43,072 bases of DNA from Planctomycetota bacterium (GCA_026692705.1 JAPLOE010000126.1:1-43072); one strand, 5' to 3'. Numbered from the stretch's first letter, positions 2,382-20,654 are shown. The notes: generated by a model from the sequence alone, not told the origin. Made by a program: numbers and translations.

Positions 2382-3011
2382 TCAGAAGGGCCACAGCCAG
2401 GAGAACAGGTCGTGGATCCACGCGCCGATGCCGCGGCGGTTGGTGGAGTTGGTCAGCGGGCCGGAGCCCTTGTAGGAGACCGTCGCGTTGGCGACGAGCT
2501 CGCTGGCGACCGAGTTGTCGGCGGCGATGTCGTAGCGCCGCACGATGCCGGAGAACTCGATCAGCTTGGTCTCGTTGTCGATGCGGATCTCGCGCCGGCC
2601 GCTGACGACGAGGTTGCCATTGGGCAGCACGTCGACCACCATCGCGGCGAGCCGCGCCGTGAACGCGCCCGACTTCTCGTACTTGGCCTGCCCGACGAAG
2701 CCGTCGGTCGAGTCCGCGTCGACCACGGTCGGCAGCTGCCCGAACACGTTGGGCTTGAGGTCGAACAGGTTGACCTTGTAGTTGAGGTTGGTCGCGCGCG
2801 AGAGGTCGGACTGCTCCTGGTTGCGCACGTTCTGCGTCTCGGCGATCAGCACCGTGACGATGTCGCCCTTGTTGACGGCGATCTTGGCCGTGATCGGCGA
2901 GCCGGGGCTGCGGTCGGGGTCGTAGATCGAGCCGGGCCGGGCCTGGGCGGAAGCGAGGCTCGCGAGCGCGAGCGCCGCGAGCGGGACGAGCGGAAGTCGG
3001 TTGGGCTTCAT
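2382..3011 (-). CDS. flgH: Flagellar L-ring protein FlgH, lacking the lipobox cysteine
   Basis: 209 residues. FlgH forms the outer-membrane L-ring. Family features include PGSIYDPDRSPGSPITAKIAV, GDIVTVLIAETQNVRNQEQSD, FVGQAKYEKSGAFTARLAAMVVD (split here over residues ~105-127), LPNGNLVVSGRREIRI and the closing GIGAWIHDLFSWLWPF. Oddly, canonical FlgH is a lipoprotein, but here the signal peptide (MKPNRLPLVPLAALALASLASAQA) ends in a signal-peptidase-I type ASAQA site and the whole protein contains no cysteine, so lipid anchoring is impossible. The ATG at 3009-3011 follows flgA by 11 nt. The presence of flgH together with flgI implies a didermic envelope. Confidence 0.94.
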   Translation of the reverse strand: MKPNRLPLVPLAALALASLASAQARPGSIYDPDRSPGSPITAKIAVNKGDIVTVLIAETQNVRNQEQSDLSRATNLNYKVNLFDLKPNVFGQLPTVVDADSTDGFVGQAKYEKSGAFTARLAAMVVDVLPNGNLVVSGRREIRIDNETKLIEFSGIVRRYDIAADNSVASELVANATVSYKGSGPLTNSTNRRGIGAWIHDLFSWLWPF

Positions 3012-3022
3012 GGGTGCGGTTC

Positions 3023-3952
3023 CTAGCCTCGGTCGGAGAGTTCGATCAACGCGAGGTCGCGCGACACCACCGTCGCGGTCATGGCACGGCCGGACTCGGC
3101 GATCTTCACGCGGATGCGGTCGCCGGGATGCGCGTCGGCCTCGGCGATCGCGGCGACGCGCGCGTGCACGTTGCCGCGGCGCACCTCGAGCAACACCGTG
3201 TCGCCGCGCTTGACGATCACCTCGCGCAGCACGTCGATCTCGCGCAGCACCTGCCCCGTGGCGAGGTCGCGGCGCGCCGTCGCGCCCCAAGCGAGGCCGG
3301 CCGCGAGCGGTGCGCTCTCGCCGTCGCCGCTGGAGAGCACGCGCTTTTTCTCGAGCATGTCGGGCGAGATCGTCTCGCCGAGCGCGACCGGCCGCTTGAG
3401 CACGTTCGCGTCCTCCCACACTGCGAGGCGCCAGTTGGTCCACACGGTGCGGTACAGCGCGCCGTCGACCTGGATGCGCACCGGCACGTTGATCGGGCCC
3501 GGCCGGAGGATCGTGTCGCCGAGCACGCTGCGCACCTCGAGCGGCTGATTGCCGGCCGGCACGTCGAGCTCGACGATCGGAGCGTTGAGCGTGAGCTCGA
3601 ACTCGCGCCCGGGCAGCGCGCGCGCGACCTCGCGCCGCGCCGCCTGCTCGATCGTCGCCGCGCTCACGTGGTCGACGGCCGGCGAGACTCGGCAGGAGCC
3701 CGAGCCCTTCATCGTGGCCGTGACGCCGTAGACGAGGCGCTGCACGTCGGCCTGCAGTCGGCCTGCCGAGAGCGTGCGCGTGTAGCCGGGCGCCGGCGCG
3801 TAGCCGAGCTTGATCGCCCGCACGCGCGCGACCTCGTCGGGATCGGTCCCGTCGACGGTCGCGACCTGCGCGAGCTGGATCTCGGTGCCACGCACGGTGG
3901 CGTCGGGGTTGAGCGTGATCGTGACGCCGCCGAGGAAAAGTGCGAGGAGCAT
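3023..3952 (-). CDS. flgA: Flagellar basal-body P-ring formation protein FlgA
   Basis: 309 residues. FlgA is the periplasmic chaperone for P-ring assembly. The C-terminal SAF-like module is clear: RPVALGETISPDMLEKKRV near residues 187-205, RRDLATGQVLREIDV, and VIVKRGDTVLLEVRRGNV leading to GDRIRVKIAESGRAMTATVV. The N-terminus MLLALFLGGVTITL is a very short hydrophobic stretch with no basic residue before it, so the export signal is atypical. An in-frame TGA lies seven codons upstream, so this is the only usable start nearby. It sits 10 nt after flgG and 11 nt before flgH. Confidence 0.92.
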   Translation of the reverse strand: MLLALFLGGVTITLNPDATVRGTEIQLAQVATVDGTDPDEVARVRAIKLGYAPAPGYTRTLSAGRLQADVQRLVYGVTATMKGSGSCRVSPAVDHVSAATIEQAARREVARALPGREFELTLNAPIVELDVPAGNQPLEVRSVLGDTILRPGPINVPVRIQVDGALYRTVWTNWRLAVWEDANVLKRPVALGETISPDMLEKKRVLSSGDGESAPLAAGLAWGATARRDLATGQVLREIDVLREVIVKRGDTVLLEVRRGNVHARVAAIAEADAHPGDRIRVKIAESGRAMTATVVSRDLALIELSDRG

Positions 3953-3962
3953 GCGTTGGACC

Positions 3963-4751
3963 TCAGCGGATCATCTGGTTGACTTGCTGGAGCATCTCGT
4001 CGGACACCTTGATCGCGCGGCTGTTGATCTCGTAGTTGCGCTGCGCGAGGATCAGCCCGACGAGCTCATCGACCACCTGCACGTTCGAGCGCTCGAGGTA
4101 GCCCTGCTTGATCATGCCTGTGCCGTCCTGGCCGGGCGTCGCCTGCGCGGGCTGGCCGGAACTCGCCGTGTCCGAGTACAGGTTCGAGCCCTGCGCCTTG
4201 AGACCCGCCGCGTTGGGGAAGCGGAACATCGAGATGTTGGTCACGATCTCGGGGAGGCCGGACTCGCTGCGCTGCACGGAGACGGTGCCATCGGCGCCGA
4301 TGATCGTCTTGATCGAGTCGGGCGGAACGTTGACCGGCGGATCGAGCGGATAGCCCTCGGACGTGACGAGGTTGTTCGCGCCGTCCTGGCGGAACGAGCC
4401 GTCACGCGTGTAGCGGAACTCGCCGTTGGGCAGGCGCACGCGGAAGAAGCCCGCGCCGGTGATCGCCATGTCGAAGTCGTTGCCCGTCGGCGCGAGCTCG
4501 CCCTGGCGGAAGGTCTTGACCGAACCCGCGACTTCCGAGCCGCTGCCGACCTGCAGGCCGGTCGGCGCCATCTGCTGCGCCGAAGTCGGCGCGCCCGGAT
4601 CGCGCACGGTCTCGTACAGCATCTCGCGGAACGAGAGCTCGTTCTTCTTGAAGCCGGTCGTGTTCACGTTCGCGATGTTGTTCGCGATCGTGTCGACCTG
4701 CATCTGCTGCACCTTCATGCCGGAAGCGGCGGTCATCAGCGCTCGGATCAT
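3963..4751 (-). CDS. flgG: Flagellar distal rod protein FlgG
   Basis: 262 residues, the usual FlgG length. It starts MIRALMTAASGMKVQQMQVD and continues IANNIANVNTTGFKKNELSF, the classic rod-protein N-terminus. A FlgG-type core follows (LAPTGNDFDMAITGAGFFRV, then GEFRYTRDGSFRQDG), and the C-terminal helix VVDELVGLILAQRNYEINSR ends VSDEMLQQVNQMIR. The ATG at 4749-4751 has a GGAG ribosome-binding site about 11 nt upstream. A longer upstream open frame is only the shadow of flgF. It is the second gene of the sigma-54-driven operon, 29 nt after flgF. Confidence 0.96.
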   Translation of the reverse strand: MIRALMTAASGMKVQQMQVDTIANNIANVNTTGFKKNELSFREMLYETVRDPGAPTSAQQMAPTGLQVGSGSEVAGSVKTFRQGELAPTGNDFDMAITGAGFFRVRLPNGEFRYTRDGSFRQDGANNLVTSEGYPLDPPVNVPPDSIKTIIGADGTVSVQRSESGLPEIVTNISMFRFPNAAGLKAQGSNLYSDTASSGQPAQATPGQDGTGMIKQGYLERSNVQVVDELVGLILAQRNYEINSRAIKVSDEMLQQVNQMIR

Positions 4752-4780: not shown

Positions 4781-5482
4781 TCAGCGCGGGTTGGTCAGGC
4801 GCTTGTAGGACTGGTCGATGCTGCTCATCACTCGCGTGCCCATCTCGTAGCGGCGCTGCACGGCGATCATCGCCACGAGCTCGTCGACGGCACTGGTGTT
4901 GGCCTGCTCGACGTGGCCTTGGCGCACTTGCGCTTCGCTTGGGATCGGCAGGGCCGTCTCGGGGGCGGTCCACAGGCCGCCCTGTTTCATCCGCAGGCGC
5001 TCGGGCTTCTCGAAGTCGACGATGCGCAGCTGGCCGACTTCGGCGTCGCCCTGCTTCACGCGCCCGGTGGAGTCGACCGTCGGCGCCTTGCCGTTGGGAT
5101 CGATCGTGCCGCGAGCACCCTCCCACGCGACCGGCAGGCCCTCCTGGGTCTGCAGCACGCCCGTCTCGTTGACGAAGAAGCGGCCGTCGCGCGTGTAGAG
5201 CTCGCCATCGGTGCCCTCGACGGTGAAGAAGCCCTTGCCCGCGAGTGCGAGGTCGAAGGTCTCGCCAGTCGGGCGCAACGTACCCTGGCTGAAGTCGATG
5301 CGGCGCTCGGAAGCGATGCTGCGCTCGAGGCTCTGCCCCAGGCGCGAGTCGAACGACTGCACGCGATCGATCGAGCGCTTGAACCCCGCGGCATTCAAGT
5401 TCGCGAGGTTTGCGGCGATCATCTCCATGCGGCGCTCGGCGGCGCCCATCGCCTGGACAGAGTAGGTCAGCCCGTCGGTCAC
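4781..5482 (-). CDS. flgF: Flagellar basal-body rod protein FlgF, GTG start, possibly leaderless
   Basis: 233 residues from a GTG at 5480-5482 (read MTDGLTYSVQAMGAAERRME). This start is chosen because it supplies the conserved rod-protein N-terminus leading into MIAANLANLNAAGFKRS; the next ATG would remove it. Core features are GTLRPTGETFDLALAGKGFF, DGELYTRDGRFFVNETG and the C-terminal helix VDELVAMIAVQRRYEMGTRV. It is shorter than FlgG and lies immediately before flgG, which suits the proximal rod protein FlgF, although the FlgF/FlgG distinction by sequence alone is soft. The -12 box of the sigma-54 promoter ends 12 nt before the GTG, so the predicted +1 practically coincides with the start codon and no Shine-Dalgarno leader can exist. 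Confidence 0.88.
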   Translation of the reverse strand: MTDGLTYSVQAMGAAERRMEMIAANLANLNAAGFKRSIDRVQSFDSRLGQSLERSIASERRIDFSQGTLRPTGETFDLALAGKGFFTVEGTDGELYTRDGRFFVNETGVLQTQEGLPVAWEGARGTIDPNGKAPTVDSTGRVKQGDAEVGQLRIVDFEKPERLRMKQGGLWTAPETALPIPSEAQVRQGHVEQANTSAVDELVAMIAVQRRYEMGTRVMSSIDQSYKRLTNPR

Positions 5483-5493
5483 GCGGTTCGCGG

Positions 5494-5509
5494 TGCAAGC
5501 TCGGTGCCA
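5494..5509 (-). promoter_or_regulatory. Sigma-54 (RpoN) -24/-12 promoter of the flgF-flgK operon
   Basis: On the minus strand the sequence reads TGGCACCGAGCTTGCA: TGGCAC, five bases, TTGCA, which is a full match to the -24/-12 consensus. The GC of the -12 element is at 5496-5495, placing +1 near 5483, right next to the flgF GTG at 5482. sigma-54 control of rod/hook operons by a FleQ/FlgR-type activator is well known in other phyla; here it is inferred from the motif. Confidence 0.88.
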
Positions 5510-5580
5510 AGCCTGAAAGGGCTGTCCACGGGCCCGCGGGGCGCGTTGCTCCGCATTCCGACCCGAGAGGTTCCTTCCAT

Positions 5581-5597
5581 GCCGGAAGGCCTTTCGG
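5581..5597. promoter_or_regulatory. Candidate activator (enhancer) site upstream of the flgF sigma-54 promoter
   Basis: The plus-strand 15-mer GCCGGAAGGCCTTTC (5581-5595) recurs exactly at 11002-11016, upstream of the fliK sigma-54 promoter. At this copy it extends to CCGGAAGGCCTTTCGG (5582-5597), a 16-bp palindrome with one mismatched pair. It starts 72 bp upstream of the -24 box, a normal distance for a bacterial enhancer-binding protein. Binding is inferred; no activator gene is in the window. Confidence 0.6.
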
Positions 5598-5605
5598 GTC
5601 AAACT

Positions 5606-5618
5606 TTCAGGACCTGAA
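5606..5618. repeat. Short perfect palindrome TTCAGG-A-CCTGAA
   Basis: A 6-1-6 inverted repeat between the end of the antiporter frame and the flgF promoter. The single-base centre cannot form a hairpin loop and there is no T-run, so it is more like a protein-binding site than a terminator. It lies about 10 bp upstream of the candidate activator site and has no counterpart at the fliK promoter. Function unknown. Confidence 0.35.
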
Positions 5619-6035
5619 GTTCCCTTCAGAACGGGCCTACGCACCCGCCCCGTAGCGGGAACGGACCGGCCCCGGCTGGCTCAGGGGCTGCCCGGAGGCC
5701 CGAACTCGCGCCCCAGCTGGCGCTCGCGCCGCAGCGTCCGCACCACCCCCACCCCGAGCCCGACCACGGTCAGCGGCACCACGAACCACAGCATCGCCGA
5801 GCTGAAGGCCGGCAGGGCGTCGTGCGCGGTCGAGGCGAGGCCGAGGTAGGCCGAGTACGCGACGTAGTAGCCGAGCAGCAGCCAGCCTTCCCAGCGCGAG
5901 ATCGTGAAGCCGGTGAACAGGATCGGCAGGCAGGCCAGCGAGACCGCGATCATCACCGGGAAGTCGAAGGCGAGCGCCGCCGGAGCGACCGCGACGCCGT
6001 CCGTCGCGATCAGGGCCGAGGGCCCGAGCACGCCG

Positions 6036-6070
6036 AGCACGTTGAAGATGTTGCTGCCGACGACGTTGCC
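6036..6070. repeat. 35-bp direct repeat, copy 1 (antiporter alpha-2 region)
   Basis: Identical over 35 bp to 6436-6470, exactly 400 bp away. Both encode the NVVGSNIFNVL part of the two antiporter alpha repeats. Sequence diverges directly at 6071, where the reading frame is lost: copy 2 continues into codons for DIALG, whereas copy 1 continues into the end of an upstream helix. Confidence 0.9.
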
Positions 6071-6435
6071 TCACGCCGAAGGACTTGGCGATGGCCGTCG
6101 CGGCGTCGACGAACAGGCTCGAGCCCGCGATGAGCAGCGCGAGGCCCGCGAGGATCTGCACGCCGCACACCCAGCGCTTCACCGGCGTTTTCGGCGCGTG
6201 CCCGTCGAACTCGGCCTTCACCGCCGCGGATTCCCTGCGCGCGCCCTGGACGCAGAACCACGTGAAGGCGACCACTCCGGCCGTGAGCAGCGCGCCCTCG
6301 AGGCGCGAGATGCGCCCGTCCCAGGCGAGCACCATCGCCAGCGCCGCGGTGCCGATCATGATCGGCGTGTCGATCCGCACGAGCTTGGCCGCGACCGCCA
6401 GCGGCGTGATCGCCGCCGACAGGCCGAGGATGAAC

Positions 6436-6470
6436 AGCACGTTGAAGATGTTGCTGCCGACGACGTTGCC
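6436..6470. repeat. 35-bp direct repeat, copy 2 (antiporter alpha-1 region)
   Basis: Partner of 6036-6070, inside the intact first half of the antiporter. Some similarity is expected because CaCA alpha repeats arose by duplication, but 35 identical bases including wobble positions is unusually high. Confidence 0.9.
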
Positions 6471-6752
6471 GAGCGCGATGTCGGCGTTGCCTTCGACTGC
6501 GGACGTCAGGCTCACGACGAACTCGGGCGCGCTCGTCCCGTAGCTCACGACCGTCAGGCCGACGACCAGCGACGAGACGCCCAGCGACGCCGCCAACCGC
6601 GACGCGCCGCGCACGAGCAACTCCGCGCCGCCGGTGAGCACCGCGAGACCGGCGACGAGCAACAGGATCTGGGTCCACATGGGCAGGGCTCCCCGCTCGC
6701 TGGCGGGGTGTTCAGGGCCGAGCGCCCCGGTCCGGGGCGTGAGGGGCCGCCC

Positions 6753-7091
6753 CTACGCGCGTCGGTGCGGAGCCTTCGCGCGAGCCGCACCCCTTTTGTG
6801 GTCGACGGCGTGCTCGACCGCGCGACGCAGCTTGGTCAGTGCGCTGGCGACGACGCGCTTGAGGTCCTTGCCCTTGGCCTCGACGCGCAGGATGCCGAGG
6901 TGCCCGCAGTTGACGATGACCTCACAGTTCTTGTCGAGCCCGCCCTTGGGGCCGTTGACGTCGTCGAGCTTGACTTGTGCCGAGACGACGCGGTCCTCGA
7001 CGTGCGCGAGCGCCGCACGTAGGTCGGCGTTGATCGAGTCGCGGAGGTCCTGTTCGAGCGTGACGTGGGGGGAGCGGAGGAGGACGCGCAT
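6753..7091 (-). CDS. HPF/RaiA-family ribosome-associated protein (short form)
   Basis: 112 residues, the size of short hibernation-promoting factors. The family's most conserved segment, VKLDDVNGPKGGLDKNCEVIV (split near residues 40-60), is followed by VEAKGKDLKRVVASALTKL and a basic C-terminal tail. Such proteins bind the 30S subunit in the mRNA/tRNA channel and silence or dimerise ribosomes in stationary phase. The family's old name is 'sigma-54 modulation protein', but this does not show that it regulates sigma-54. It lies 72 nt downstream of flgE on the same strand, so it may be co-transcribed with fliK-flgD-flgE. The Cys at NCGHLG is not a family feature that I know. Confidence 0.85.
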   Translation of the reverse strand: MRVLLRSPHVTLEQDLRDSINADLRAALAHVEDRVVSAQVKLDDVNGPKGGLDKNCEVIVNCGHLGILRVEAKGKDLKRVVASALTKLRRAVEHAVDHKRGAARAKAPHRRA

Positions 7092-7100
7092 TGCGAGTCT

Positions 7101-7115
7101 CTTTCGTGGCGAAAG
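7101..7115 (-). promoter_or_regulatory. Small hairpin overlapping the leader of the HPF-like gene
   Basis: CTTTCG-tgg-CGAAAG, a 6-bp perfect stem with a 3-nt loop, 10 bp before the HPF-like start codon. On the minus strand its 3' arm runs into GAAAGAGA, the only purine-rich candidate ribosome-binding site, so folding could mask translation initiation. The effect is inferred from position only. Confidence 0.3.
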
Positions 7116-7163
7116 GTGAAGCGGGGTAGTTCTGCCGGATTGTGGCGCGCCGGACGCCCGGAT

Positions 7164-9101
7164 TCACCCGGTGTTCGGCGTATCGATTTCCCATGGAGTC
7201 GCGGCCCCGCCGGAACGCGCCGGCGGGGCGCGCGCGTTGGCCTGGAAGCCGCGCTGGGCCTCGATCAGGCGCACGAACTCCTCGGCCACCGACACGTTCG
7301 AGCCCTCGAGCGCGCCGCCGTTGACCTGTCCGGCCTTGCCCTGCGCGCCCTTGGAGACCGTGCGCACGCCCGAGTTGGGCGTCTCCGACCACAGGTTGTC
7401 GCCGACCTCGCGCAGGCCGTTGTCGTTGACGAAGCTCGCGATGCCGAGCTCGCCCAGCACCTGGATCTGGCCGTTGGTGTAGAAGCCCTGGATGTCGCCG
7501 TCGGAGTTGACGGCCATGTTGGAGAGCTCGCCCACGCCGTAGCCGTCCTGGAAGTCGGCGAACACGCTCGCGCCCTGGCCGAACTGCGTCACGCCGTCGA
7601 ACAGGCCCGGCGTGCCGAAGTCGACCTTGACGGTCTGGGCGCTCTGGCCGGGGAACTGCACCGAGAAGCCCGAGTTCGCCGGCAGCGAGGCGATCGAGCC
7701 GTTGGAGTTGAAGCGCAGGCCGGTGACGAGGCCCGACACCGTGCCGTCGGCAGAACTGGGGATCATGTTCCACGAGGCGTCGTCCTGGCGCTCGAACGTG
7801 AGCGAGACCGTGTGCGACGTGCCGGCCGAGTCGAACACCTCGATCGACGTGGTGGTCTTGTCCGGGCCAGCGCCGGCGGTGGTCGTGATCAGCGAGTGCT
7901 GCGGCCAGTCCGTGCTGCCCGCGCCGCTCTGGTCGGAGAGCGTGAGCGACAGCCCCGTCGAGCCGGTCTGGTCCGCGCGGATCGAGAACTGGCCGGAGGT
8001 GGCGTCGAAGCTCGGCGTCGCGTTGGGGAAGGCGTTGTCGATGAACGTGAGCAGGTCGTTGACGGTCGTGCCGTCGTTGCCGGCGCCGTAGACGAAGCTC
8101 GCCAGCACGCTCGTGCCGTCGGTGTCGACGCCCGCGATCTCGATCACGTCGCCCGGCTGGTAGTCGACCAGGTTGGTCGGCAGGTCGTTGAGCGCGGTCG
8201 AGAGCGTCGCCGTCGACTCGGTGCCCGAGACCTGGCTGAGCGACAGGCCCGTGAGGGACGCGAGGTCCTGACCGCTCGCACCGCTCACCACCTTGAGCGT
8301 GCGCGCCGCGCCCGTGCGGTCGGTCGCGAGCTGTACGGCGCCGGCGTTGGCGACGGCCGTGACGCCCGTGGTCTGCGCGTTGATCGCGTTCGCGATGTCG
8401 AGCGCGGTGTAGGGCGCCGCCTGGCCGGCGAGCGACACCGTCTGCGGCGCGCCGCCGTCGACGACCACTTCCATCGTCCACGTCTGGCCGACGGGCACCG
8501 TGAAGGAGTTCGAGTTCACCGAACCCGAGAGCGACGCGCTCGTGCCCTGCTTGAGTGCCGTCGAGGCCGTCAGCACCTGCGCCAGCGGGCCGGTGATCGT
8601 CGCCGGCAGGTTGCCCGCGAAGCTGATCTGCGAGGTCTGCGTCGGCGGGAACAGCGAGGTCGTGTCGAGGTTGATCGGCTGGCCATTCAGGCCGAGCACG
8701 CGGAAGCCCGTGCGCTGGTCGACGAGCCGGCTGGTCGCGTCGAGGCCGAACGTGCCGACGCGCGTGTAGAGCGTGTTGTTGCCGTCGGACACCATGAAGT
8801 GGCCGCGGCCGTTGAGCGCGAGGTCGAACGTGCGGCCGGTGCTCGCCAGCGCGCCCTGATTGAAGTCGCGACCGATGTCGGAGAGCTGCACGCCGAGGCC
8901 GAGCTGCATCGGGTTGCGGCCACCGAGCGAACCCGACGGCAGCGACGCGTAGCGCAGCGTCTGGCTGAACTGGTCGCTGAACACCGCGCGCGCCGACTTG
9001 TAGCCGGGCGTGTTGGCGTTCGCGAGGTTGTTGCCGATGACCGAGATCCAGTTCTCGTGGGCCTGAAGACCGGAAAGGGCGGCGAAAAGTGCGCTGGGCA
9101 T
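7164..9101 (-). CDS. flgE: Flagellar hook protein FlgE, with an abnormal C-terminus
   Basis: 645 residues, long compared with ~400 in E. coli because of an enlarged central region. The N-terminus MPSALFAALSGLQAHENWIS leads into VIGNNLANANTPGYKSARAV, a hook signature, followed by NQGALASTGRTFDLALNGRG. The last conserved helix begins normally (NVSVAEEFVRLIEAQRGFQA, then NAR), but the expected closing segment of about 17 residues (a TTxDEMLQELVNLxR-like D0 helix) is absent. Instead the frame ends APPARSGGAATPWEIDTPNTG. A strong GC inverted repeat sits exactly where the homology stops. The D0 C-terminal helix is needed for hook polymerisation, so this is either a damaged gene or a sequence error. 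The start is the ATG at 9099-9101; flgD precedes it by 54 nt. Confidence 0.9.
   Translation of the reverse strand: MPSALFAALSGLQAHENWISVIGNNLANANTPGYKSARAVFSDQFSQTLRYASLPSGSLGGRNPMQLGLGVQLSDIGRDFNQGALASTGRTFDLALNGRGHFMVSDGNNTLYTRVGTFGLDATSRLVDQRTGFRVLGLNGQPINLDTTSLFPPTQTSQISFAGNLPATITGPLAQVLTASTALKQGTSASLSGSVNSNSFTVPVGQTWTMEVVVDGGAPQTVSLAGQAAPYTALDIANAINAQTTGVTAVANAGAVQLATDRTGAARTLKVVSGASGQDLASLTGLSLSQVSGTESTATLSTALNDLPTNLVDYQPGDVIEIAGVDTDGTSVLASFVYGAGNDGTTVNDLLTFIDNAFPNATPSFDATSGQFSIRADQTGSTGLSLTLSDQSGAGSTDWPQHSLITTTAGAGPDKTTTSIEVFDSAGTSHTVSLTFERQDDASWNMIPSSADGTVSGLVTGLRFNSNGSIASLPANSGFSVQFPGQSAQTVKVDFGTPGLFDGVTQFGQGASVFADFQDGYGVGELSNMAVNSDGDIQGFYTNGQIQVLGELGIASFVNDNGLREVGDNLWSETPNSGVRTVSKGAQGKAGQVNGGALEGSNVSVAEEFVRLIEAQRGFQANARAPPARSGGAATPWEIDTPNTG
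7204..7229. repeat. 10-bp perfect GC inverted repeat inside the 3' end of flgE
   Basis: Stem GCCCCGCCGG, loop of six bases, stem CCGGCGGGGC. It starts immediately after the codons for the conserved GFQANAR of FlgE, where the protein loses homology. There is no following T-run, so a terminator is unlikely. Such a stem is also a typical place for polymerase or assembly deletions. Confidence 0.75.
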
Positions 9102-9155
9102 GGTGCGGGGAGAGTGGGTTCGGGGTGGTGGGTCGTGGTGCGGAGCGCAGGGCGA

Positions 9156-9599
9156 TCAGGCGCCGGTGTCGGCCGTGGGCGGGACGCCGATCTCGAGCAC
9201 GCTGCCGAGCGGCACGCTCTTGCCGCCGATCTGCAGCTGGGCCGTGCCGTCCTCGATGCGGACCGCCTCGACCTTGCCCCACAGCTCGGTGCCCGCGTCG
9301 TCGGTGTAGAGCACGTCCTTGCCGATCAGCGCGCTCGAGCTGGTGAGCTGCTCGAGCACCGCGTTGGACTGCTGCAGCACCGCGAGGCCGACGATGTTGT
9401 CGTTGAGGTCGTTCATCTCCTCGAGCGACTGGAACTGCGCGAGCTGCGCGAGCATCTGGTCGTTCTTGGTCGGCTCCATCGGGTCCTGGTTCTTCATCTG
9501 CATCACGAGCAGGCTCATGAAGGCGTCCTTGCCGAGCGCGGATTCCTTGCCGCCGGAGAGCGAGATGGGATCGTTCGAGCTGATTCCGTCGATCTGCAT
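9156..9599 (-). CDS. flgD: Flagellar hook-capping (basal-body rod modification) protein FlgD
   Basis: 147 residues, at the short end for FlgD (231 in E. coli): the conserved N-terminal assembly segment is complete but the C-terminal domain is reduced. The diagnostic stretch is LGKDAFMSLLVMQMKNQDPM then EPTKNDQMLAQLAQFQSLEE near residues 22-62, followed by a small beta-rich C-terminal part (ALIGKDVLYTDDAGTELWGK onwards). FlgD caps the growing hook so that FlgE can polymerise. The start is the ATG at 9597-9599, 16 nt after the fliK stop. An upstream open frame extending to 10781 is arginine/serine-rich and only a shadow of fliK. Confidence 0.94.
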   Translation of the reverse strand: MQIDGISSNDPISLSGGKESALGKDAFMSLLVMQMKNQDPMEPTKNDQMLAQLAQFQSLEEMNDLNDNIVGLAVLQQSNAVLEQLTSSSALIGKDVLYTDDAGTELWGKVEAVRIEDGTAQLQIGGKSVPLGSVLEIGVPPTADTGA

Positions 9600-9615
9600 G
9601 GTCTGTTCCGTGAGT

Positions 9616-10887
9616 TCAGGCGTAGGTGTCGATCCCGCTCGTGGCGGGCAGGCGTGCGGAGAGCGCGCGGGCGAGGCTCGCCGGCGCGTTGAACTGGAGC
9701 GAGCGGCGCGTGGGCGCGGACTCGGGCGCCTCGTGGCGGCCCTCGCGCTCCTCGAGGCCGAGCTGCAGCGAGAGCTCGCCGCCGCCGAGACCCGCGCGCT
9801 CCAGCGCGGCCTCGAGCTCCGGCATCTGCTTCTGCAGGGCGTCGAGCGCCGAGCGCTTCTCGACGCGCAGCTCGGCATGGGCCGAACCGCCGCGCATCGT
9901 GACCTTGACCGAGATGCGGCCGAGCTCGCGCGGCTCGAGCTGGATCGTCGCCTGACGCAGCTCGGGCGAGAGCTGCAGGCGGATCTGGCGCAGCATGTCC
10001 GCCGCGCGCTCGGGCGTGACCGGCGGCTCGTTGCGCGGCGCGGACTTGGCGGCCTCGACCTCGGGGCGCGTCGCCGCCGTGGTCTCGCGCGGCGCGACCT
10101 CGCGCGTCGCGGCGTGCGTGCTCGTCGCGTCGTTGCGCGCGGCGGCCTCGAGCTTCTCCGCGCCCGCTGCGAGTTCCTTGGGCTGCAGCTCGTGCGCCTC
10201 GCCCTGCGCGGGCTGCGCGACTTCCTGGGCGACGTCCGTGCTCGCCGGAGCCTCGCCCTCGACCGCGAGCTCACCCTGCGGCGCTTCAACTGCCTCGTTC
10301 GCGCCCTCGAGCGCGAGGTTCGGCTTGGGCGCGAGCTTGGCGTGCGACTCGAGGCCCTTGCCCTGGCCGAGCTGCACCCCGAGCGTCTCCGTCGCCGGAG
10401 CCTGCTCGCCTTCGACCTGCGGAGCGCCCGCCGGCGTCTCGCCGCGCGCGGCCTTCGCAGGCTTCGCTTCGGTGCGAGCGGCGTCCGTCGCGCGCTCGGC
10501 GGTCGGTTCGTTGCAGGCCTGCGAACCTTCGTCGGCCTGCGTGTCCCGGGCCTTCGCGGCTTCCTCGACCTCACCCTGCGCCGGTGCGCGTTCGCGCGCC
10601 TCGTCGGTCGCTTGGGTCGAGCTCGACGACTCGGTCGTCTCCGTGGAGCGATTCCTGCGCTCGGACCGCTCGCTGCGGGCCTCACGGCGCTCGCGCGTCG
10701 CACTGAGTGTCTCGCGACGATCTTCGACGCGCTCTCCGGCGGCCTCGCGCTCGCGCAGGCGGCTGGAAAGCTTCGCGTCAAAACGTTCGCCGGCCTCGCT
10801 CCGCTGGGGGCTGGTAGGAGCGAGCCGCCCCGTGCCGGACGGCCCGCCCTCAGCTACCAAGGAACGGAGAAAGGGATGGTTCTCCAT
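9616..10887 (-). CDS. fliK: Flagellar hook-length control protein FliK
   Basis: 423 residues from the ATG at 10885-10887 (MENHPFLRSLVAEGG). The first ~290 residues are a low-complexity Glu/Ala/Arg/Thr-rich ruler region. The C-terminal FliK/Flg_hook domain is recognisable as AADMLRQIRLQLSPELRQAT then IQLEPRELGRISVKVTMRGG and AHAELRVEKRSALDALQKQM near residues 295-370. FliK sets hook length and switches export specificity. Two upstream in-frame ATGs (10899, 11019) are rejected because the first lies between the -12 box and the predicted +1 and the second lies upstream of the promoter. The chosen start is only ~4 nt after the predicted +1. First gene of fliK-flgD-flgE. Confidence 0.9.
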   Translation of the reverse strand: MENHPFLRSLVAEGGPSGTGRLAPTSPQRSEAGERFDAKLSSRLREREAAGERVEDRRETLSATRERREARSERSERRNRSTETTESSSSTQATDEARERAPAQGEVEEAAKARDTQADEGSQACNEPTAERATDAARTEAKPAKAARGETPAGAPQVEGEQAPATETLGVQLGQGKGLESHAKLAPKPNLALEGANEAVEAPQGELAVEGEAPASTDVAQEVAQPAQGEAHELQPKELAAGAEKLEAAARNDATSTHAATREVAPRETTAATRPEVEAAKSAPRNEPPVTPERAADMLRQIRLQLSPELRQATIQLEPRELGRISVKVTMRGGSAHAELRVEKRSALDALQKQMPELEAALERAGLGGGELSLQLGLEEREGRHEAPESAPTRRSLQFNAPASLARALSARLPATSGIDTYA

Positions 10888-10901
10888 CGTGCCCTCCATG
10901 G

Positions 10902-10917
10902 AGCAAGGGCGGTGCCA
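10902..10917 (-). promoter_or_regulatory. Sigma-54 (RpoN) -24/-12 promoter of the fliK-flgD-flgE operon
   Basis: The minus strand reads TGGCACCGCCCTTGCT: TGGCAC, five bases, TTGCT, matching the -24/-12 consensus. The GC of the -12 element is at 10904-10903, so +1 is predicted near 10891, about 4 nt before the fliK ATG at 10887. It is the second such promoter in the window and shares its upstream element with the first. Confidence 0.88.
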
Positions 10918-10988
10918 AGCGCCGGAATGCCCGCGAAAGTGGCTGGGAGCGGGGTCGGTGCGCGCGAGCAGGGAAAGACCGTCCCCCC

Positions 10989-11016
10989 GCCGGAAGGAAA
11001 CGCCGGAAGGCCTTTC
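10989..11016. promoter_or_regulatory. Tandem candidate activator sites upstream of the fliK sigma-54 promoter
   Basis: Two direct copies of GCCGGAAGG (10989-10997 and 11002-11010) spaced 13 bp start to start; the second is part of the 15-mer GCCGGAAGGCCTTTC shared with the flgF promoter region. The first copy begins 72 bp upstream of the -24 box, exactly the distance of the single site at the flgF promoter. The rest of the 10888-11207 gap between fliK and the divergent cytochrome gene shows no further gene. Confidence 0.6.
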
Positions 11017-11207
11017 CATCTGCGACTTCCTTCGTATTCCGGGGGCTCCACAGGGCCTGCTTTGGAACCGTTCCCGATCGGCGTGCGTCGGGTAGTCTTG
11101 GCTGCTCGGTCCACGCCCCTCCGGGCGGGGCTGAGCGTGCGTGCGTCTCCGGCCCGGTCCGGGCGCGCCGCCCCAAAGGAACCTCCACGAGTCTCGAGCT
11201 CCACCTC

Positions 11208-19677: not shown

Positions 19678-19688
19678 AAGCTCAGGCG
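19671..19688. terminator. Hairpin shared by the ends of ogt and the HDOD gene
   Basis: CGCCTGA-aagc-TCAGGCG, a perfect 7-bp stem with a 4-nt loop. Both convergent stop codons (TGA at 19675-19677 and TGA on the minus strand at 19682-19684) are inside the stem. No T-run follows on either side, so termination efficiency is uncertain. Confidence 0.5.
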
Positions 19689-20533
19689 ATCTCGAGGATG
19701 CTCTTCGCCTTCGCGAGTTCCTCGCGGAGCGGCTCCTCGAGCGCGAGGAATCCGTCGCGATCGAGACCCAGCCGCGCGAGCGCGACGTCGTGCATGCGGT
19801 ACTGCGGCAGCGCACCCGCGATCTCGCCGAAGTGGAACGTGTGCGTCGCCATCTCGGCCACGTGGCACAGGGACGCGAGGTCGGGATCGATGTAGGCCGC
19901 TTCCGGGTTGTGGTGCGTGCGGATCGCGTCGATCAGCACGTCGGGGAAGTCCCACTTGCGCGCGAGGCGCGCGCCGATCTCGGCGTGGTTCATGCCGTAG
20001 ACCTGCTTCTCGGCCTCGATCAGCTCGAGCCCGCCGTCGAGCGCGCGCTGCAGTTCCTCGCGGCGTTCCGGCACGAAGCGCATCAGCACGACGTGACCGA
20101 TGTTCTCGAGCAGGCCCGCGGTGTAGGCGCGGTTGCGTTCGGAGCGGTGCGTGCGCGCGGAGAGCGCGCTCGCGCCGAAGGCCGTCGCGATCGACTGCTC
20201 CCACAGCCGCATCGCGGCCTCGGGATCCGAATAGCCGTAGTCGCGCAGGTAGCGGCCCGTGCACGAGGTCAGCACGAGGTTGACGAGCGTCTGCACGCCG
20301 AGCAGGTTGCCGGCTTCCGGCAGCGACGCGATCTCGCGCTGGAAACCGTACAGGGCGCTATTGCACAGCTTGAGCACCTTGGCGGTCACGCCAGGGTCGG
20401 TCTGGATCAGGTCGACGAGGTCGCGCGGGACCACGTCCTCGCGCCCGGAGAGCTGCATCACCCGCGTGGCGACTTGCGGCAGCGGCTCGATGCTCTTGAT
20501 GTCTTCCAGAAGGTCGGCAAGTACGGTCGGCAT
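19682..20533 (-). CDS. HDOD-domain signalling protein
   Basis: 283 residues, one HDOD domain (a degenerate HD hydrolase fold without metal-binding HD residues) covering most of the protein. Typical segments: IEPLPQVATRVMQLSGREDV near residues 15-34, DLIQTDPGVTAKVLKLCNSA then LYGFQREIASLPEAGNLLGV near 41-80, and YTAGLLENIGHVVLMRFVPE, HAEIGARLARKWDFPDVLID with RTHHNPE later. HDOD proteins act in signalling, often with chemotaxis, second messengers or stress. No partner domain is attached. It is downstream of dsbD on the same strand with a 121-nt gap and is probably independent. Confidence 0.92.
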   Translation of the reverse strand: MPTVLADLLEDIKSIEPLPQVATRVMQLSGREDVVPRDLVDLIQTDPGVTAKVLKLCNSALYGFQREIASLPEAGNLLGVQTLVNLVLTSCTGRYLRDYGYSDPEAAMRLWEQSIATAFGASALSARTHRSERNRAYTAGLLENIGHVVLMRFVPERREELQRALDGGLELIEAEKQVYGMNHAEIGARLARKWDFPDVLIDAIRTHHNPEAAYIDPDLASLCHVAEMATHTFHFGEIAGALPQYRMHDVALARLGLDRDGFLALEEPLREELAKAKSILEIA

Positions 20534-20654
20534 GGCGGTGGTGGGCCGCGTGAAGGCGCGGGTCCAGCGCAGGTTTCGACCGCGAGCTCTCGGGACCTGA
20601 ACGTTTTTGCCTGTGCCCCGTCCCGCGACGTACGGAAAGCCGTTCCGTGCGTTC

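Follow-up and report, generated by a model that had tools for sequence, protein, structure and literature searches.

A phased palindrome as the probable enhancer of sigma-54 promoters for flagellar rod and hook genes in Planctomycetota

Introduction

The closest described systems are FlgSR, FlrBC and FleSR, in which a two-component system acts with sigma-54 to activate the rod and hook genes later than those of the MS ring, rotor and export core; a separate flgF promoter has also been reported in Vibrio (PMC7064773). Here we analyse a stretch of 43,072 nt and ~70% GC from a Planctomycetota bacterium (GCA_026692705.1 JAPLOE010000126.1:1-43072; hereafter the window), in which the flagellar operons fliK-flgD-flgE and flgF-flgG each carry a sigma-54 promoter preceded by the 13-bp palindrome GGAA-N5-TTCC. 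This element probably serves a sigma-54 regulon of rod and hook genes as its upstream enhancer, bound by an enhancer-binding protein (EBP) designated EBP2. As in FlgSR of Campylobacter, FlrBC of Vibrio and FleSR of Pseudomonas, a kinase and an NtrC-type regulator would serve sigma-54 promoters of rod and hook genes. In contrast to those systems, this one belongs to the phylum Planctomycetota, its regulator genes lie ahead of flgB-flgC-fliE-fliF-fliG, its enhancer is a defined and phased palindrome well upstream, and its transcripts are predicted to be leaderless.

Planctomycetota are mostly uncultured and their flagellar control is barely defined; the literature found on it names neither an enhancer site nor an activator. 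Sigma-54 promoters have been predicted before motility genes in Planctomycetia, and the available portion of that survey does not name the enhancer site, the cognate activator or leaderless starts (PMC12316311). What the present analysis adds is therefore the enhancer site with its phasing, a candidate activator and the prediction of leaderless starts. All evidence comes from sequence comparison, mostly of incomplete draft assemblies; the relatives named are uncultured Planctomycetota, and kinship among species is only partly corrected by sampling one promoter per genus and operon. The window's own genome comprises 4.95 Mb in 348 contigs. Site positions given as minus numbers are counted from the T of TGGCAC, the -24 box.

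Promoters and Probable Enhancer Sites of the fliK and flgF Operons

The promoter motif TGGCAC-N5-TTGC occurs on the minus strand where an earlier sequence-only reading of this DNA had placed it, at 5509-5495 and 10917-10903; the window has no other exact match. Its GG and GC dinucleotides stand 10 bp apart as expected of a sigma-54 (-24/-12) promoter, and relatives have equivalent promoters ahead of fliK and flgF at orthologous positions. Judged from sequence, both promoters are real. The consensus alone was rejected as a regulon finder, because the genome holds 5 exact matches vs 8 for the reversed control; upstream of the other three exact matches, a similar site was not found. In the window's genome the rpoN family PF04552 is hit twice (E 1e-60 and 3e-50). 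These two rpoN-type genes lie on contigs C253 and C47 of one genome, G000 (L245, L246).

The word GCCGGAAGG has exactly three copies in the window, starting at 5581, 10989 and 11002, and the 15-mer GCCGGAAGGCCTTTC lies at 5581-5595 and 11002-11016. A repeated 15-mer is by itself unremarkable, since 281 of them are present at two or more places in the window; the chance that two given 150-bp upstream regions share one is ~3e-4. The 15-mer has only two exact copies in the whole genome, both at these promoters. The reading had also pointed to two copies of GCCGGAAGG lying 13 bp apart at the fliK operon, which are present (10989 and 11002), and to a word starting 72 bp before the -24 box at both operons. 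The arithmetic is right (5581-5509 = 72; 10989-10917 = 72), but this distance is not a conserved feature: it is measured to a full site at flgF but only to a half-site at fliK, the 15-mer copies themselves sit 72 bp (flgF) and 85 bp (fliK) upstream, and sites in general are helix-phased over ~56-144 bp. Nor does the exact 15-mer hold as the operator. Near-matches with up to 2 mismatches are about as common in the genome as in the reversed control (21 vs 18), the upstream regions of relatives mostly lack the word singled out by the reading, and the 15-mer is lost beyond close relatives; its core is kept only in the closest of them, at flgF. Four members of the genus lack the word at fliK.

What is conserved emerges when the upstream regions of relatives are read in register, namely the palindrome GGAA-N5-TTCC. 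On the minus strand GCCGGAAGGCCTTTC reads GAAAGGCCTTCCGGC, a core common to the fliK site GGAAAGGCCTTCC and the flgF site CGAAAGGCCTTCC. With gap lengths x = 0-12 in GGAA-Nx-TTCC, 14 occurrences were counted at x = 5 (0.18 expected) and 0-1 at every other x. Since some of the 57 promoters surveyed below were picked via the motif itself, the unbiased test is an open dyad search over 33 independent, non-redundant family regions that were not chosen for the motif. GGAA-N5-TTCC ranked first among the palindromic dyads in this search (12/33 regions; 0.13 expected), and across 60 shuffles no such dyad reached more than 6 regions. For calling sites in the window's genus, a weight matrix trained on other genera only was used. 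In G010 and those genus members that were read, it places two sites at fliK (-98 to -101 and -66 to -68); flgF likewise has two (-86/-87 and -68/-69). The four genus members without the reading's word at fliK have the same two-site layout with weaker sites (~7-10 bits vs 16 for a perfect site). Across 57 non-redundant promoters, one site or more is present in 52 and two or more in 29, as compared with ~7 and ~0.3 in shuffles.

The sites lie ~56-144 bp upstream of the -24 box, and their positions recur every 10.8 bp relative to it (58 sites at 40 promoters, one promoter per genus and operon; p ~0.00025 over periods 6-16), placing them on one helical face with respect to the promoter. Paired copies are mostly 18-24, 31-34 or 41-43 bp apart; with all periods allowed, the periodicity of site-to-site spacing by itself is not significant, only the promoter phasing is. 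A dyad-symmetric, often tandem and phased site upstream of the promoter is what characterizes the upstream activating sequence (UAS) of a bacterial EBP. The layout resembles that of NtrC-type UASs, with tandem, helix-phased dyads upstream of a -24/-12 promoter for an activator with REC, AAA+ and Fis domains. The NtrC dyad itself differs from a GGAA half-site with a 5-bp gap. The sequence-only reading had seen a shared EBP site at two flagellar sigma-54 promoters, and the cross-genus comparison strongly supports this.

A perfect site, GGAACGGCTTTCC, with a weaker one 36 bp on, also lies at 20598-20646 of the window (minus strand), upstream of an HDOD-domain gene (19682-20533). No clear sigma-54 promoter was seen downstream of it.

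Distribution of the Element in the Family, Order and Phylum

The combined pattern searched for was GGAA-N5-TTCC followed after 45-105 bp by TGGCAY-N5-TTGC, with the reversed pattern as control. Among 81 genomes of the family it gave 42 matches vs 1 for the control. The genes that follow are mainly flgF and fliK, in addition to a FliO-like gene and a regulatory operon that encodes kinase-like and receiver-like proteins and leads into the EBP2 cluster. A third match in the window's own genome (C1:835-946) precedes a gene not recognisably flagellar and was set aside as probably due to chance. In some genera (L131-L134, L217, L222) a sigma-54 promoter stands before the kinase/EBP2 operon, accompanied by the palindrome or a sequence close to it, an arrangement that suggests autoregulation. 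The first genes of this operon encode receiver and anti-sigma-type ATPase proteins (PF13581).

In a phylum sample of 244 genomes, further matches outside the family precede flgB-like genes (G158, G179), fliE (G295), a FliK-like gene (G322) and flgF/G-type genes (G319, G330), besides a few chance-looking matches; the flgB and G330 calls have weak or absent Pfam support and, like the FliK call, are resemblances read from sequence. The enhancer thus extends beyond the family, and a restriction to it, first suggested by the rest of the order (see below), was withdrawn after this sample.

Candidate Activator and Alternative Explanations

The window encodes no sigma-54 activator among its proteins. 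EBP2 is found outside it on contig C110 (329-1711), where a kinase gene ends just before it and flgB-flgC-fliE-fliF-fliG follow. It has REC, sigma-54 AAA+ and Fis-type helix-turn-helix domains (PF00072, PF00158, PF02954) with the motifs GESGTGKE and GAFTGA, the composition of a FlgSR/FlrBC/FleSR-type regulator. In nearly all family clusters read EBP2 adjoins flgB with a PAS-HisKA-HATPase kinase just upstream; of this kinase, only the 3' end is present on the contig of the window's genome. Walker A and GAFTGA/GSFTGA are retained by EBP2 in 24/24. In two genomes outside the family (G179, G295), the best EBP2 match of the genome stands directly upstream of a site-bearing promoter, of a flgB-like gene and of fliE, respectively. 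The recognition helix of EBP2 is near-invariant in the family and shares (A/S)RT(L/I)xxKxxxW with G179 and G295; in two families without pattern matches it reads VRTLFNRLQE or PRTLYNRLKT. Taken together, location, motif retention, the neighbourhood in G179 and G295 and the recognition helix make EBP2 the likely binder of GGAA-N5-TTCC.

Structure matches of EBP2 include NtrC-family activators and FlrC (AAA+ domain, PDB 4qhs, E 3.7e-75). In NCBIfam many NtrC-type EBP families score, and the equivalog cut-offs, including those of FlgR and FlbD, are not reached; the likeness to FlrC, FleR and FlgR is drawn at the level of function. The evidence points to a likely FlgR/FlrC/FleR-type regulator of the rod-hook tier, and supports the flagellar master regulator that the sequence-only reading had envisaged only to that extent. 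The sites mark sigma-54 promoters of rod and hook genes, which a system of the FlgSR/FlrBC/FleSR type may control through the likely binder.

EBP1, a second regulator near the flagellin genes, belongs to this cluster in most members of the family and where intact has REC, AAA+ and Fis domains. It could thus be a FleQ/FlrA-like activator that binds the palindrome, with EBP2 binding elsewhere. This is unlikely, and EBP1 is disfavoured as the activator: its Walker A and GAFTGA, the motifs for ATP binding and sigma-54 contact, are lost in the window's genus, G010, G022 and G035, yet the window's genus, G022 and G035 still have site-bearing promoters. Moreover, its recognition helix NRTTLYNK is identical in f6/f7 genomes that lack the motif, and the regulator adjacent to the sites in G179 and G295 is EBP2-like rather than EBP1. 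That several genera (L207-L212, L174, L176) have lost Walker A and GAFTGA and kept the DNA-binding helix is an observation in its own right; the degenerate EBP1 is possibly a regulator turned non-activating DNA binder.

Quite improbable too is a different binder, such as a repressor or an architectural factor including the ATPase-dead EBP1, for which the site would not be an activator's enhancer. A palindrome by itself does not identify its protein, and the degenerate EBP1 of the window's genus keeps a C-terminal Fis-type helix-turn-helix; however, promoter phasing and a tandem spacing of ~2-4 turns are the behaviour of a looping activator, and some sigma-54 promoters in other families of the phylum carry the motif as well. 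A chance repeat or terminator-like inverted repeat in GC-rich DNA has hardly any likelihood left: repeated 15-mers are indeed common by chance in a window of 70% GC and a stem can be drawn within 5560-5600 (5560-5570/5590-5600), but the reversed-pattern and shuffle controls, the phasing, sites kept at fixed positions while their flanks diverge, and the linkage to flagellar genes in other families all contradict it.

Several findings nevertheless weigh against EBP2 acting through the palindrome. About half of the promoters have one good site only and 5/57 have none above threshold. The window's genome has ~20 sigma-54 activators, so another could bind the site; EBP1 could share its binding where intact, and the correlation with the recognition helix is based on few lineages. 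Other families of the same order gave 0/73 for the pattern, although EBP2-like genes are present there, and their fliK and flgF loci mostly have no recognisable sigma-54 promoter.

Predicted Leaderless Transcripts

The start codon (ATG or GTG) lies 12-16 nt past TTGC in 58/60 promoters. At flgF promoters the offset is 12-13 nt in 28/31 and exactly 12 in 20/31. Sigma-54 transcription usually starts ~12 bp after the -12 element, and together with the 12-16 nt offset this would give a 5' leader of ~1-5 nt. Taking as leaderless a messenger RNA (mRNA) whose start codon lies within ~5 nt of the transcription start, here placed from promoter geometry, the fliK and flgF transcripts of this family are predicted to be leaderless. 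Elsewhere in the order, one similar close-start case was seen (G059); promoters of the phylum sample mostly have leaders of at least 34 nt, and at the fliE promoter of G295 the start codon comes 15 nt past TTGC. The literature found on leaderless transcripts does not address leaderless sigma-54 starts in planctomycetes.

Proposed Mechanism

EBP2 dimers would bind one or two GGAA-N5-TTCC palindromes ~56-144 bp before the -24 box on one helical face. Once phosphorylated, EBP2 would assemble and loop to the sigma-54 polymerase at TGGCAC-N5-TTGC, driving fliK-flgD-flgE and flgF-flgG; fliO or the kinase/EBP2 operon would be further targets in some genera. Since EBP2 is encoded together with FliF and FliG, the rod and hook genes may be switched on after the basal tier of MS ring and export genes. 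If so, the control of rod and hook genes by a two-component system and sigma-54 would reach into a distant phylum, for which the palindrome and its geometry, a candidate activator and a few target operons are now at hand, together with a predicted conserved set of leaderless sigma-54 transcripts.

A bolder proposal has about an even chance, namely that Planctomycetota share a phylum-wide flagellar regulon based on GGAA-N5-TTCC and an EBP2-type activator, in which this family moved the promoters against the start codons and so makes leaderless rod and hook mRNAs. If true, activator-dependent initiation of transcription would be coupled to a different mode of translation initiation.

Features of the Window and Neighbouring Genes

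Table 1. Promoters, predicted enhancer sites and flagellar genes in the window.
Feature	Position	Strand	Sequence or support
Sigma-54 promoter (-24/-12) of fliK-flgD-flgE	10903..10917	-	TGGCACCGCCCTTGC; exact match; fliK equivalent in ~20 related genomes
Downstream enhancer site of fliK (predicted), starts at -67	10972..10984	-	GGACGGTCTTTCC; weight matrix from other genera; -66 to -68 in five related genomes
Upstream enhancer site of fliK (predicted), starts at -100	11005..11017	-	GGAAAGGCCTTCC; perfect GGAA-N5-TTCC; -98 to -101 in five related genomes
Extra GCCGGAAGG word, half-site rather than full palindrome; source of the 72-bp coincidence	10989..10997	+	
Sigma-54 promoter of flgF-flgG	5495..5509	-	TGGCACCGAGCTTGC; exact match; kept in relatives
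Downstream enhancer site of flgF (predicted), starts at -69	5566..5578	-	GGAAGGAACCTCT; -68/-69 in G004, G005, G002
Upstream enhancer site of flgF (predicted), starts at -87; core of 15-mer	5584..5596	-	CGAAAGGCCTTCC; register reading of relatives and weight matrix
fliK; ATG 15 nt past TTGC, nearly leaderless transcript predicted	9616..10887	-	PF02120
flgD	9156..9599	-	PF03963, PF13861
flgE-type hook protein	7164..9101	-	PF07559, PF00460
flgF; GTG 12 nt past TTGC, leaderless predicted	4781..5482	-	N-terminus MTDGLTYSVQAM... consistent with FlgF
flgG, start approximate; second gene of flgF operon	3963..4748	-	PF22692, PF06429, PF00460
flgA, downstream, same direction	3023..3952	-	PF13144
flgH inside this open reading frame, downstream, same direction	2382..3443	-	PF02107

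Between flgE and flgF, a ribosome-hibernation-like gene (PF02482) and a Na/Ca-exchanger gene intervene (5637-7091, minus strand). The exchanger gene (5637-6680, minus strand) is apparently broken: its first half runs in one frame to ...AIAKSFGV, GNVVGSNIFNVLG... goes on in another, and the second repeat is partly missing. A stretch of ~33 bases is present at both exchanger repeats, so a deletion or an assembly collapse is possible. The distance between the two sigma-54 promoters is ~1 kb shorter in several relatives, too short to hold both the PF02482 gene and the exchanger.

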